Below are positions 23,774-29,767 of a DNA stretch of 64,000 nucleotides, one piece after another. The notes under the pieces were generated by a model. It made no database searches, was not told the DNA's origin, and saw only the letters and a list, made by a program, of their open reading frames with translations. Numbering within the stretch: position 1 is the first letter of the stretch; each line of letters starts with the position of its first letter. A program made the translations under genes and the position numbers. This DNA is from Gimesia maris (GTDB lineage Bacteria > Planctomycetota > Planctomycetia > Planctomycetales > Planctomycetaceae), in NCBI RefSeq assembly GCF_008298035.1, contig NZ_CP042910.1, positions 950,001-1,014,000 on the forward strand. The letters run 5' to 3'.

Positions 23774-24517
23774 ATGAAAATCATTCCGGTTCTGGATATC
23801 CTGAATCAAACCATTGTGCGTGGTATCGCCGGTCAGCGTGAAACGTATCAACCCATTCAAAGTGGTCTGACCCACTCCAGTCAACCCCTTGATATTGCGC
23901 AGGCTTTGCAAGACGAATTTGGTTTCAGTGAGTTTTATGTTGCGGATCTGGATGCGATTCTGCAACAACGACTCAATCTGCAAATGTATCAGTGTCTGCT
24001 CGACGCCGGTTTTACGTTTCTTCTCGATTGTGGATTGCACTTTGCTGGTGACAGCCAACCTTTATCAAAGATGAAAGGCATCACGATTGTCGCGGGGCTG
24101 GAAACATTGGAATCGCCACAGGAATTGAAGCAGCTGGTACAAAACTGGGGCGCTGCCTCAACCGTCTTCAGTCTGGATCTCAAACAGGGAAAGCCTGTTC
24201 GTAACAGTTCCTCAGACAATCCGTATGCGGCAATCGATGATCCGCTGGAGATCGCTGAATTGAGTCTGCAGCAGGGCGTGAACCAGATGATTCTGCTGGA
24301 TCTGGCCAATGTGGGGACCGGTCAGGGAACCGGAACGGAAGCGCTCTGTCGCACACTGCGCAGCCATCACCCCGATTTGAGACTGATTACCGGAGGCGGC
24401 ATTCACAGCATAGATGATCTACAGACTCAGGCAGAGCAGGGGGCAGACGCCGTACTGGTGGCGTCTGCGCTGCATGATGGCCGACTGGGGAGAGACGCTG
24501 TTCTCTCTCTCTCTTGA
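23774..24517 (+). CDS. HisA/HisF-like (beta/alpha)8-barrel protein
   Basis: A 247-residue barrel of the HisA/HisF superfamily. The N-terminus MKIIPVLDILNQTIVRGIAG matches the HisA start (catalytic Asp in VLDI), and the phosphate-binding loop is LITGGGIHSIDDLQ with GADAVLVASALHDG near the end. No other histidine gene is nearby. Planctomycetes and methylotrophs carry a HisA-like protein linked to tetrahydromethanopterin/methanofuran C1 metabolism, and this could be that one rather than true HisA; this is inference from memory of the family. Its 3' end lies four bases from the convergent TlpA-like gene. Confidence 0.75.
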   Translation: MKIIPVLDILNQTIVRGIAGQRETYQPIQSGLTHSSQPLDIAQALQDEFGFSEFYVADLDAILQQRLNLQMYQCLLDAGFTFLLDCGLHFAGDSQPLSKMKGITIVAGLETLESPQELKQLVQNWGAASTVFSLDLKQGKPVRNSSSDNPYAAIDDPLEIAELSLQQGVNQMILLDLANVGTGQGTGTEALCRTLRSHHPDLRLITGGGIHSIDDLQTQAEQGADAVLVASALHDGRLGRDAVLSLS

Positions 24518-24521
24518 CGTT

Positions 24522-26441
24522 CTATTGCTGCTGTAGCAGACCGGGCAGAGATTTCTTAAGGTCTGCAACGGTGGCACTGCGGTTGACCACTTTGCCTGCC
24601 TTGTCGACGAGGAACATGGTCGGCAGCGAGATCACGCCGAAGTCGCGTGCGGGTGCACTTTCCAGTCCACCTTCTTCATGGATATGAGCCCAGGTAACCT
24701 TGTGCTGCTTGATGTAGGCTTCTGCCAGTTCGGGAGTCGCATCGAGGTTGATTCCCAGCACGTCAAATCCCTGGCTGTGGTATTTGTTATACAGCTCCTG
24801 AATCTGAGGCAGGTCTTCGGTACAGGGTTTACACCAGCTCGACCAGAAGATCACCAGCAGCGCTTTACCCCGATACTGCCTGGCATCGATTTTCCCTCCA
24901 GCCAATGAGTTCCCCGTTAGCTCCAGTTCCGTGCCTGACAGATTCATACGTCGCAGGGCGCCCGCACCACGGGTGCCCGCTTCGGAATCAGCATGGCTTT
25001 CGACCAGTTTGGTGTACCATTTTTTGGATTCGGCTACTTTACCGCTGAATTCCTGTGTGACTGCCAACTGCAGCATTGCTTCCGCAGCGTCGTCCGAGGT
25101 GGGATATTTCTTGATAAAGTCTTCCAGCTGTCCCAGCCACCAGGTCTGCACATCGCGAAGTTGCTCACTTTGGGTCGACTGCAACTGGGTACTGTAATCG
25201 GCCAGTAAGGTGCGGTAGGTCACATATGCAATCAGATCCTGATCCTGAGATTTCTTCTGAACCTGATCGCGAATGGCCTGCAACTGTTTGAGGCCATCCT
25301 TGTAGCCCACCGTCTGTACGGCGGCTGCCAGCCCGTCGACCATTTGTCGGGTCCACTGGGATCGGTCATCTTCATTTTTGGCAGCTGCGATCAGCTTTTC
25401 GATAATGGCGACCCGCTCGGTATTATAGCGGGCAATCGCCTGTGGTCCCTGGTCCGGAGTCGGACCGTTCTGATCCAGTTTCTGCAGTTCATCCAGCAGT
25501 GCCTGCATCTCTTTGGAGAGACCAACGGTGGTATTCGTCGGTAACGTATTTGTTCCGGCGACCGGCTGCATCAGAATTCCGCCTTCGGTCACCTGGATGG
25601 ATTCTCCTTCAATCGGCAATGGGACCTGTGTCAATCGCCAGGCGTTTCCTACGCGAATCAGTTCACCAAACTGGATCAGACCACTTTTTCCCTTGGTATC
25701 GACAATCGCCATCACATTTTCAAAGACGTGCAGATCTTTCTTGGTTTTAATGTCATCTGCAGGAATCAGGCCCGGCATAGAGCCATCAAAGCGGACCCAG
25801 ATGGTGTCCGGTGTGATCATTTTGGTCTTGGAAAGCATCGTGGTGATATCTTTCGCAGCGCTGTTTACCGATTCACGAATTTTGTCAGCGAAGGGATTCT
25901 GGATTCCGGCGTCTGCCAGTTCCGCTTCCGTGATCATCAGTGTTTTAAAAGCCTTGGTATCATTCTTTGCCAGTGCGTTCATGGCGACGCGGGTGACTTC
26001 CTCCGCAGAAATCATATTCCACTCATCAATCTCGCCATCTTCATTCTTGTCAATGCCCCAGCGGGTTCCGGCAAGATTCATCCAGCGCGAGCCATCTACT
26101 TTATTATTATTGTTGGAGTCGATATCCCGGTAGACTTCCAGACCGCGATTGAAATACCGCCATTGATCGACCACGTTGTCACCATTCGTATCGACAAAGC
26201 GTCTGAGCACCTGTCCGTTCGGTCCATAGACGATCCAGCCAGAACTGTTTTTGCCCTGTTCGACTTCAACCTTGCAGCGGCCGTAATCGGCTTTGTCGGG
26301 GATTTCAATTTCGATGTCGGACTGGATCGGTTTGAACGTCAACGCGAGTTCAACCGACGGTGCATCAGCTGCCGGTAAAGAATGAGAAAACAGAATGAGG
26401 GTTGCGAATACTGTTAAAAAAGAGATTCGACCAATAGACAT
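24522..26441 (-). CDS. Exported TlpA-like thioredoxin with EF-hand-like loops
   Basis: A 639-residue exported protein: signal peptide (FLTVFATLILFSHSLPAADA, about 8-27), then three EF-hand-like or dockerin-like Ca2+ loops (DTNGDNVVD at 84, DSNNNNKVD at 108, DKNEDGEID at 131). A helical middle with TPR-like repeats (about 300-500) follows, and a C-terminal TlpA/ResA-type thioredoxin domain with WCKPC at about 534-538 and the cis-Pro segment VISLPTMFLVD. The known role of the last domain is reduction of disulfides in exported proteins such as apocytochromes c. I chose the ATG at 26441, with GGAG upstream and the signal at the start; 41 extra residues from an upstream start look untranslated. 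It lies downstream of the AmrSAB gene on the same strand. Confidence 0.85.
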   Translation of the reverse strand: MSIGRISFLTVFATLILFSHSLPAADAPSVELALTFKPIQSDIEIEIPDKADYGRCKVEVEQGKNSSGWIVYGPNGQVLRRFVDTNGDNVVDQWRYFNRGLEVYRDIDSNNNNKVDGSRWMNLAGTRWGIDKNEDGEIDEWNMISAEEVTRVAMNALAKNDTKAFKTLMITEAELADAGIQNPFADKIRESVNSAAKDITTMLSKTKMITPDTIWVRFDGSMPGLIPADDIKTKKDLHVFENVMAIVDTKGKSGLIQFGELIRVGNAWRLTQVPLPIEGESIQVTEGGILMQPVAGTNTLPTNTTVGLSKEMQALLDELQKLDQNGPTPDQGPQAIARYNTERVAIIEKLIAAAKNEDDRSQWTRQMVDGLAAAVQTVGYKDGLKQLQAIRDQVQKKSQDQDLIAYVTYRTLLADYSTQLQSTQSEQLRDVQTWWLGQLEDFIKKYPTSDDAAEAMLQLAVTQEFSGKVAESKKWYTKLVESHADSEAGTRGAGALRRMNLSGTELELTGNSLAGGKIDARQYRGKALLVIFWSSWCKPCTEDLPQIQELYNKYHSQGFDVLGINLDATPELAEAYIKQHKVTWAHIHEEGGLESAPARDFGVISLPTMFLVDKAGKVVNRSATVADLKKSLPGLLQQQ

Positions 26442-26587
26442 ATCACGGGACTCCGATTCCGCTGGCACGCATACTTTAATGTTTGAAAAACGACAGAGTC
26501 GGGATTTTAATAGAAAACCGGTGTTTTGGTCACCATCAATTTCTGTAATTCCCGGTAAACCCATCAGTTACTGACGGAGTTTGTACT

Positions 26588-29500
26588 TCAGTTGATCAAC
26601 AGGCCGGCGTAGCCGACCACCCGGGAGGAATCCCCGGTCACATCGCCTGAAGTGGCATAGCCCACTTGTTCTATCTGGTTTAGTTTGCCCATTTTCTGCA
26701 GCGTTTTCATCACGATGACTGCTGGCAGGACGCCACACATGGAAATATGGTACTCACGAACCGTTTCCAGCAGGCCCTCGGGGTCCAGCGACCGCATTTT
26801 CTCGAGTGCCAGTTCGTCCAGTCGACGATTTTCCTTGTCTGTGGCAAAGTGATTCATGTCGCTGGAAATCAATAACAGCGGCGGTTCGGGCATTTCCTGA
26901 ATCACGCGCGCCAGTCCCGCGGCAAACTCTTCGCAGCGTGGCAGGTTGCCACTGCCGATGACAATACCGATAACTTTGGCATCCGGTGCCAGGCGTTGAA
27001 TCAGCGGAAGTTCCACTTCAATGGCATGTTCGCTGCGATGGGCGGCGGCATCCAGTTCCAGTCCCGGGATCTGTTCCGCGAGTTTTTGTGCCAGCGCGCG
27101 ATCGGAATTCAGGTTGCCACCGGGTAACTGCCAGGCCTGATGCGGTGCGACCGCCCAGTCGACTCCCTCGCGTGTGTGTTTGGGGCCGATGACGATAATC
27201 GTGGACGGGAGCTGAATCCGGTTCAGGACGCGGGCTGCGATTTTGCCCGAGTATTTCCAGCCCGCATGGGGCACCATCGCTGCAGCCCAGGGTTGAGCGT
27301 CTACTTGATCATGGAATAATTCCCCCAGCTGGGCGGTCATTCTGGCGGGGTCAGCGGGATAAAACGTCCCCGCGACTCCCGCTGGTCTGATTTCAGTTCC
27401 GAGTTCGGCACGGGGGCGGTTTACAATCTGAAAACGGGAGGTAGTGGTCTGCACCGCCAGGCTGAGAACCTGAACCGTTTCCGGTTGTTCGCAACTCAGG
27501 GCCTGTTGCGCTGCTTCCAGCAGATTTCGAGTGTCCTGATCTCGATCATGACACCAGGCATTTTTTTGACCGTCAATGAGCAGCAGACTGCGTTGCTGAA
27601 AATCAAAGTCTAGCAGATCATTTTGAGTCAGAGTGCCATGCATGGCCGGGTCGGATGCCAGCACCAGTTTGATTTGAAATTCGCCCGATTTCAGATTCAG
27701 TCTGGAAATGATCTGTGCCAGTTGCTGACAGAGTGAAAACACCGTGGACTGCATGGGAAATGTCTGCTTCAGAGCCCACTTGGAAAGAATCAGTTCTTCG
27801 TCTGTGCCCGTTCGCGATAACAGCAGCGCGACTCCCTGCAGATTCGTATCGGAGACCGCATCACAATAATAGGAGGGCACCTGGCCTTTGAGTAACGCGT
27901 CGACCGTTGATTGAATGTATTGCAGATACTGGGCAAATTCGCGCGGTCCCAGAATGGTTTTCGCCTGTTTTTCAGGAGCGAGGTCGACAAGCTCTGTGAA
28001 ACTGGCAGCGCAGGAGATTCCCTGAAATCGCAATAAGGTGGTGCCGGAATCTTTCCAGGCAGTCGGGGGGAGACCCGCTTTGATACAGGTCTGGTTCAGG
28101 AATTCTTCAGCATCCCAGCCGTGATCAAGGGGCACGCCAGGCAGCAGTAATCCACTGCGACCATCGGCACGAATCTGCAATCCATGCTGTCCGACGACCA
28201 CTGCATCAATCCGGTCTGCGCCCTGTTCAGGAACTGTTTCCAGTCCGGACAACAGCCAGACTTCAAGATCAAGATGAGCCAGTTCACTGGGGGAAACCGG
28301 GGGGAAGCGGGGATCATCCTTCGCCGCACGAACCGCAGCCTGCTGCAAAGCCTGTCCCAGTGGAAGTGGCTGGCCAAAGCTGCCGCAACAGGACCGTAAC
28401 TGTCTCTGACGTTTCAGGCTGACAAAGGCACCGCTCACGGTTTTGTCCTGCAGTTCTCCCAGAGGAATCTCCACAGGCCTGCTGTGCGTGACGGTACCTG
28501 CAACGACAGCCGCTGCCTGCTGCAGGAGTGCCTGTTCCTGATCGGTGCTGAGTTCCATGACTTGCGTTAGCTGGTTGGGCTGCATCGTCGCAGGACCTTT
28601 CTGAGGCTCGGTGTTGCCTGGTCGCGAAAGAGGACTGTTTTTTAAGATGGACTGGATATCAACGGGCAGTCTTTTCTGACCCCAGTTGCCCGGCTTGTCA
28701 CTGAAATTGCCTGGGATTTCTGTATCACAATTGCCACAGCGATTTCCCCGTAATGCATATTTCCCTAACTGATACCAGTTACGTTCGATGAGTGTCTGCT
28801 GACATTGCGGGCAGCAGGTACTCTGTCGGACGACATCATTCACGTTTCCAGTGTAAACATATTTGAGGCCGGCGGCGAGGGCGATCTCACGGGCACGGAC
28901 CAGTGTTTCCGGCGGCGTGCCCCCGCGATCCCGCATGCGGAAATCAGGATGGAAGGCCGAGAAATGCAGCGGTACATCGGGGCCGATTTCGTTCAGAATC
29001 CAGTCGCACATCTGTTGAAATTCGCCGTCGTTATCATTCGCCTGCGGAATGACCAGATTCGTAATTTCGAACCAGACGTCCGTTTCGTGTTTCAGCCACT
29101 TGAGGGTATCGAGGACCGGTTGTAAATGCGAGAGCGTGATACGGTAATAGAATTCTTCAGTAAATGCTTTCAGATCGACGTTCGCAGCGTCGATGTGTTC
29201 GAAGAAATCCGCCCGCGCCTGTTCGGTAATATAGCCGGCTGTGACGGCGACGGTTTTTACTCCGCGGGCATGACAGGCTTTGGATGTTTCAATCGCGTAT
29301 TCTGACCAGATGATAGGATCGTTGTAGGTAAACGCGACACTCTGGCAGCCCAGTTGCGCAGCGACTTCGGCAATTTCGTCTGGCAGTGCCCGGGCGCTTA
29401 AGCGTTCGATTTCTCTCGATTTGGAGATATCCCAGTTCTGACAGAACTTGCAACCCAGGTTGCAGCCTGCGGTCCCGAAGGAGAGGACACTGGAGCCGGG

Positions 29501-29767
29501 ATAAAAATGGTTTAATGGCTTTTTCTCGATGGGATCGACACAGAAGCCGGTACTGCGACCAAACGTGGTCAATGCCATCTTGCCGCCGATGTTCTGGCGA
29601 ACAAAACAGAATCCACGGTCATTTTCTGACAGCGCGCAGGCGCGCGGACAGAGGTCGCAGATGATTTTTTCACCTTCTGTATGCCACCAGCGGGCGGGGT
29701 AAAGTCCCGAATCCAGATCAGACGGATCTACTGCCGGCGTCATGATAGGTAGCGTTTTCTCTGCCAT
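26588..29767 (-). CDS. AmmeMemoRadiSam triple fusion: radical SAM + AMMECR1 + Memo
   Basis: A 1059-residue protein joining three families usually encoded separately. Residues about 20-345 are an AmrS/PflA-like radical SAM enzyme with the [4Fe-4S] motif C102-NLG-C106-KF-C109, followed by a zinc-ribbon (STCCPQC ... RCGNCDTEIPG). Residues about 395-590 are AMMECR1 (LRSCCGSFG in place of LRGCxG; GLLLPGVPLDHGWDAEEFLN). Residues about 590-785 match nothing I know. Residues about 790-1059 are Memo, with VPHAGWKYSG, GPKHT, SEHAIEVELPLIQRL, SSDMNHF and MCGVLPAVIV, the metal-site residues of that family. The three families co-occur widely; their joint reaction is unknown. I chose the ATG at 29767; an in-frame TTG at 29797 is an alternative and neither has a strong ribosome binding site. 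Confidence 0.92.
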   Translation of the reverse strand: MAEKTLPIMTPAVDPSDLDSGLYPARWWHTEGEKIICDLCPRACALSENDRGFCFVRQNIGGKMALTTFGRSTGFCVDPIEKKPLNHFYPGSSVLSFGTAGCNLGCKFCQNWDISKSREIERLSARALPDEIAEVAAQLGCQSVAFTYNDPIIWSEYAIETSKACHARGVKTVAVTAGYITEQARADFFEHIDAANVDLKAFTEEFYYRITLSHLQPVLDTLKWLKHETDVWFEITNLVIPQANDNDGEFQQMCDWILNEIGPDVPLHFSAFHPDFRMRDRGGTPPETLVRAREIALAAGLKYVYTGNVNDVVRQSTCCPQCQQTLIERNWYQLGKYALRGNRCGNCDTEIPGNFSDKPGNWGQKRLPVDIQSILKNSPLSRPGNTEPQKGPATMQPNQLTQVMELSTDQEQALLQQAAAVVAGTVTHSRPVEIPLGELQDKTVSGAFVSLKRQRQLRSCCGSFGQPLPLGQALQQAAVRAAKDDPRFPPVSPSELAHLDLEVWLLSGLETVPEQGADRIDAVVVGQHGLQIRADGRSGLLLPGVPLDHGWDAEEFLNQTCIKAGLPPTAWKDSGTTLLRFQGISCAASFTELVDLAPEKQAKTILGPREFAQYLQYIQSTVDALLKGQVPSYYCDAVSDTNLQGVALLLSRTGTDEELILSKWALKQTFPMQSTVFSLCQQLAQIISRLNLKSGEFQIKLVLASDPAMHGTLTQNDLLDFDFQQRSLLLIDGQKNAWCHDRDQDTRNLLEAAQQALSCEQPETVQVLSLAVQTTTSRFQIVNRPRAELGTEIRPAGVAGTFYPADPARMTAQLGELFHDQVDAQPWAAAMVPHAGWKYSGKIAARVLNRIQLPSTIIVIGPKHTREGVDWAVAPHQAWQLPGGNLNSDRALAQKLAEQIPGLELDAAAHRSEHAIEVELPLIQRLAPDAKVIGIVIGSGNLPRCEEFAAGLARVIQEMPEPPLLLISSDMNHFATDKENRRLDELALEKMRSLDPEGLLETVREYHISMCGVLPAVIVMKTLQKMGKLNQIEQVGYATSGDVTGDSSRVVGYAGLLIN

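Follow-up and report, generated by a model that had tools for sequence, protein, structure and literature searches.

A four-domain gene in Gimesia maris

We analyzed a 64,000-nucleotide stretch of the Gimesia maris genome (contig NZ_CP042910.1, positions 950,001 to 1,014,000; hereafter the window), in which a single gene on the minus strand (26588..29767 of the window, with its ATG at 29767 and the stop included) encodes a chain of 1059 residues that joins the radical-SAM protein AmrS (S), the AMMECR1 protein AmrA (A) and the Memo protein AmrB (B). Between the last two lies a further domain, which we call A2, giving the order S-A-A2-B. An alternative TTG start 30 nt upstream of the ATG would give 1069 residues; positions in this long numbering are converted to the 1059-residue numbering by subtracting 10.

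The AmrS domain covers residues 26-371 (28655..29692, minus strand, as for all domains and motifs of this gene) and scores 587 bits against the NCBIfam family AmmeMemoSam_rS (TIGR04337, cut-off 220; 36-381 in the long numbering), with the Pfam family Radical_SAM (PF04055) at 109-266 of the long numbering. The translation shows its CxxxCxxC motif (C102/C106/C109, 29441..29464), which recurs in 79 of 80 tested AmrS domains from fused as well as canonical proteins. Domain A follows at residues 419-583 (28019..28513) and scores 132 bits against AmmeMemoSam_A (TIGR04335, cut-off 99; 423-593 in the long numbering, with Pfam AMMECR1 at 429-593). It carries the motif LRSCCG, including C460 (28382..28399), and the pattern R[GAS]CxG is found in the A domain of all 62 chains in which A precedes B. 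A2 occupies residues 608-783 (27419..27946), and the Memo domain residues 794-1057 (26597..27388), the latter scoring 262 bits against AmmeMemoSam_B (TIGR04336, cut-off 26; 804-1067 in the long numbering, with Pfam Memo at 806-1066). Aligned to MEMO1, for which a passage of PMC11081632 supplied the iron ligands, the Gimesia Memo domain retains the H/H/C metal-ligand equivalents H834, H864 and C1011. A strict test for four Memo motif strings was passed by 56 of the 62 chains and failed by six.

These results bear out a preliminary description of the locus, made from the sequence alone, which had claimed that the three families are joined in one 1059-residue chain: all three lie above their NCBIfam cut-offs, the Pfam matches agree, and the motifs it had named (C102/C106/C109, LRSCCGSFG, VPHAGWKYSG, SSDMNHF and MCGVLP) are seen at their places in the translation. 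The 7.8-Mb genome consists of one contig, its sole AMMECR1 match and its sole Memo match both lie in the fusion gene, and there is only one AmrS match. Across 53 S-A-A2-B chains, the linkers, measured between the ends of matches to hidden Markov models (HMMs), differ in character: the one from AmrS to A is long and variable (19-148 residues, median 43), the one from A to A2 is short (6-20, median 10), and the one from A2 to Memo has a median of 3 residues with a single outlier of 60. Nearly all chains space A and Memo 198-216 residues apart; two have a spacing of 186 residues and one of 253.

The middle domain A2

The preliminary description had presented the middle segment as lacking a recognized family and, further, as possibly a new domain that completes the system. 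The first point was confirmed, as a Pfam search of A2 in 17 homologues gave nothing significant (the best E value, 0.012, was to an unrelated family in two members), and neither did a search against the sequences of the PDB (best E value 1.6). The second point was not supported. The predicted model of A2 has the fold of solved AMMECR1 structures (1vaj, 1zq7 and 1wsc), and in profile-profile comparison with each of two AMMECR1 profiles A2 was beaten by none of 100 permutations (none of 60 each in an earlier test); moreover, five chains of the same clade do without the segment. The RxCxG motif of the family is absent from A2 at the place where AMMECR1 has it; only one of 62 chains (L134) has such a string between A and B, and there, as read from the alignment, it sits in the first helix, away from the position of the motif. 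Judged from sequence profiles and the predicted model, the middle segment looks like a badly worn second AMMECR1 copy rather than a new kind of domain.

A2 is the fastest-evolving of the four domains, with a mean identity within the genus of 72%, compared with 89% for AmrS, 80% for AmrA and 82% for Memo. The ratio of nonsynonymous to synonymous substitution rates (dN/dS) was about 0.10-0.21 in nine of ten pairs, namely those in which it could be estimated (dS was above 1 in two of the nine); A2 is under purifying selection. As a separate observation, two giant-virus proteins in BFVD match the A2 model: A0A3G5A0Z1, a protein of 522 residues named AMMECR1 domain-containing, and A0A5B8IQW3, a protein of 929 residues named Memo-like that may be another AMMECR1-Memo fusion.

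Distribution and natural variants

The genome survey suggested in the preliminary description found chains across the genus Gimesia and in a sample of the class. The middle segment is present in 16 of 17 genus genomes, the lone genome without it being 76% complete, and the genus frames measure 1062-1112 residues, except for one of 840 residues that runs off the start of its contig. All 14 fetched genus loci are full-length collinear chains with 75-90% identity to the Gimesia chain, as are four loci from other genera with 52-54% identity. An assembly error joining separate genes, to which the separate AmrS gene of some relatives might point, is ruled out: an equivalent frame without stops is found in many genomes, and the aligned S-A-A2-B chains share 49-90% identity.

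In the class sample, AmrS was matched at E <= 1e-100 in 70 of 297 genomes (71 matches). For 43 of these matches the surrounding frame measures 947-1226 residues, and for the other 28 it is shorter. At least four of the short frames (L154-L157) reach the edge of their contig, and some of the 28 may thus be fusions that were cut off. In a sample of the phylum, AmrS exceeded the cut-off in 101 of 199 genomes, and among matches above 500 bits, frames of at least 900 residues occurred only in the sample's four genomes of the genus Gimesia. A lower-scoring match in this sample (G192, 341.7 bits) lies in a frame of 1069 with a TAG inside the match.

The class sample has 43 fused chains, and an HMM of A2 matches 40 of them. 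Seventeen of these were used to build it and match by construction; 23 of the 26 newly fetched chains also match, one of them (L177) being identical to a row used in the HMM. Two fused chains, G243 (L176) and G646 (L178), carry a segment of similar length that escapes the HMM, and the fused chain of G238 has no middle segment. Variation is also found within family f3, in which four loci (L147, L150, L152 and L153) have a separate AmrS beside an A-B protein without A2, three (L184, L188 and L189) are fused with A2, and G167 has AmrS beside an A-A2-B protein. Locus L142 holds A-A2-B with no AmrS on its 12.5-kb stretch, and in G526 and G600 AmrS lies on a different contig from a frame with A and A2, the two domains searched for in it. 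In G600, an AmrS frame (L145, 5908-7422) runs directly into the first half of A2 with no AmrA between, and stop codons follow it; since the frame with A and A2 of this genome sits on another contig, L145 has the appearance of a second, broken fusion gene. A search for A2 elsewhere in G238 and the four f3 genomes that lack it found none (best E value 0.176), a weak negative because this profile failed to pick up the G243 and G646 segments as well.

We built a tree from the joined S, A and B domains with a quick method and support from the Shimodaira-Hasegawa-like approximate likelihood ratio test (SH-aLRT), using 54 of 65 three-domain loci; the other 11 were near-identical Gimesia rows or truncated chains, and L176 and L178 were labelled A2-bearing by length. 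The fused and split variants in the tree form one branch (SH-aLRT 100), apart from the four canonical systems. Within it, G646 is the closest partner of G238 (99) and G243 stands next to the pair (97), so that if the segments of G243 and G646 are A2, A2 was lost in G238; in family f3, A2 may have been either gained or lost. The lineages that have AmrS apart or lack A2 show that the system can dispense with covalent joining, and likewise with A2.

No family of flanking genes is shared by more than three of 42 loci, and the chain therefore appears self-contained. In the window, a HisA/HisF-related protein (23774-24517, plus strand; best model TIGR00734 at 124 bits, below the cut-off of 179.85) is conserved in the vicinity of the fusion in those Gimesia loci that were fetched. 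A 680-residue protein with a C-terminal AhpC-TSA/thioredoxin domain (24522-26564, minus strand) lies 23 nt beyond the fusion stop, and has matches in 14 loci of the genus and a weak one in a single further locus.

Proposed role of A2 and relation to known systems

We consider it probable, with real room for doubt, that the chain is an AmmeMemoRadiSam system in one polypeptide, in which A2, derived from an AMMECR1 duplication, is now a non-catalytic structural partner and AmrS is tethered. A2 would have arisen through duplication of an AMMECR1 domain and would pack against A as a pseudo-dimer, placing A beside Memo; A, A2 and Memo would form a compact core, to which the tethered AmrS domain would supply radical chemistry. 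The existence of the triple fusion is confirmed and speaks for a coupling of its three proteins. The preliminary proposal that they act in sequence on one substrate was overstated: coupling is not proof of an order of steps or of a single shared substrate, and relatives keep AmrS as a separate gene. A more specific version, in which A and A2 pair within the chain as a heterodimer and their interface, lined by the conserved residues of A2, takes the place of the second AMMECR1 protein of other systems, making the chain a complete, self-contained machine, strikes us as distinctly doubtful. If true, it would mean that the normal system uses a pair of AMMECR1 proteins and that the chain fixes a stoichiometry of one S, two A and one B.

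Several results weigh against a structural AMMECR1 duplicate. The families that ordinary HMMs list for the 17 A2 members include no AMMECR1 match over the gathering score of PF01871, for which reason we name the domain AMMECR1-like and do not file it in that family. The profile-profile probabilities are moderate (51 and 89%), and pairwise comparison of A with A2 stands out in only one of six chains, being negative for G646 (L178), Gimesia and three others. The G243/G646 segment resembles AMMECR1, with a score of 23.9 over 165 columns (two sequences, no permutation test), but its comparison with the A2 profile itself reveals no link (13.7 over 46 columns), so that it may be a separate duplication. 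Five chains of the clade, that of G238 and the four f3 loci, dispense with A2. The prediction of the whole chain, a check that the preliminary description had proposed, had a predicted template modelling score (pTM) of only 0.57, with AmrS poorly modelled and the domain packing not readable. Finally, against the proposed scaffold role stand residues that are conserved within A2 itself.

It is to these residues that the main rival appeals, according to which A2 kept the AMMECR1 fold while diverging and gained an active or binding site of its own that adds a function. Among the residues that 80% or more of 57 A2 rows have in common are D51, Q84, H121 and R137 (A2 alignment numbering), and purifying selection fits as well; however, several of the conserved residues are Gly or Pro, typical of structure, A2 evolves fastest of the four domains, and some lineages lack it, so that we rate this reading as unlikely, if still to be taken seriously. 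That A2 is a functionless, decaying remnant of a duplication would account for the missing family motif, its low conservation and its absence from G238 and the four f3 chains, but we hold it to be improbable, with dN/dS far below 1, the A-to-Memo spacing steady and the A2 profile recovering nearly all of the newly fetched fused chains. Less probable still, indeed very improbable, is the earlier idea of an unrelated new domain: it has the failure of HMM searches to find a significant family match on its side, and is opposed by the AMMECR1 fold of the model and by an AMMECR1-like profile that exceeds its permutation controls.

The natural single chain offers a practical advantage, since it fixes the partners physically and one protein is enough for expression, structure determination and anaerobic tests. 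It is also an example of how HMM libraries can miss a worn repeat, which then passes for an "orphan domain". PMC6393860, PMC7694686 and PMC5502304 place AMMECR1 and Memo in archaea and humans, and PMC5502304 links human AMMECR1 to disease. In the open-licence literature, we found no report of a reaction, substrate or product of AmmeMemoRadiSam, nor a description of the S-A-A2-B fusion or of the identity of A2.

AmmeMemoRadiSam itself, an enzyme system of wide occurrence, is already known, from its NCBIfam names, as a set of three proteins (TIGR04335, TIGR04336 and TIGR04337). The Gimesia system resembles it in that all three components lie above the curated cut-offs and keep their key residues, and differs in being one chain instead of separate genes and in having A2. 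Compared with the AMMECR1 structures 1vaj (PH0010), 1zq7 and 1wsc, A2 has 9% identity and no RxCxG at the equivalent place, and human MEMO1 (7kq8), with 23% identity to the Memo domain, is a stand-alone protein without other domains. The statement that the three families are normally separate genes is only partly correct, as other planctomycetes sometimes have Memo and AMMECR1 fused in the opposite order (B-A). In six of 30 AMMECR1 loci examined (L105, L108, L109, L110, L118 and L126), such a B-A protein adjoins a second AMMECR1 frame, which, like the Gimesia chain, places two AMMECR1 copies beside one Memo; unlike it, the order is reversed, AmrS lies outside the chain, and both AMMECR1 copies have LRGC[IL]G in five of the six pairs. 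The motif of A is LR[SGA]C[CMVIKR]G in the fused lineage, whereas those other planctomycete copies in which the pattern could be identified have LRGC[IL]G. A second AMMECR1-like repeat hidden in the chain points to a possible importance of having two AMMECR1 folds in each system, an idea that fits the planctomycetes described above, in which two AMMECR1 genes adjoin.
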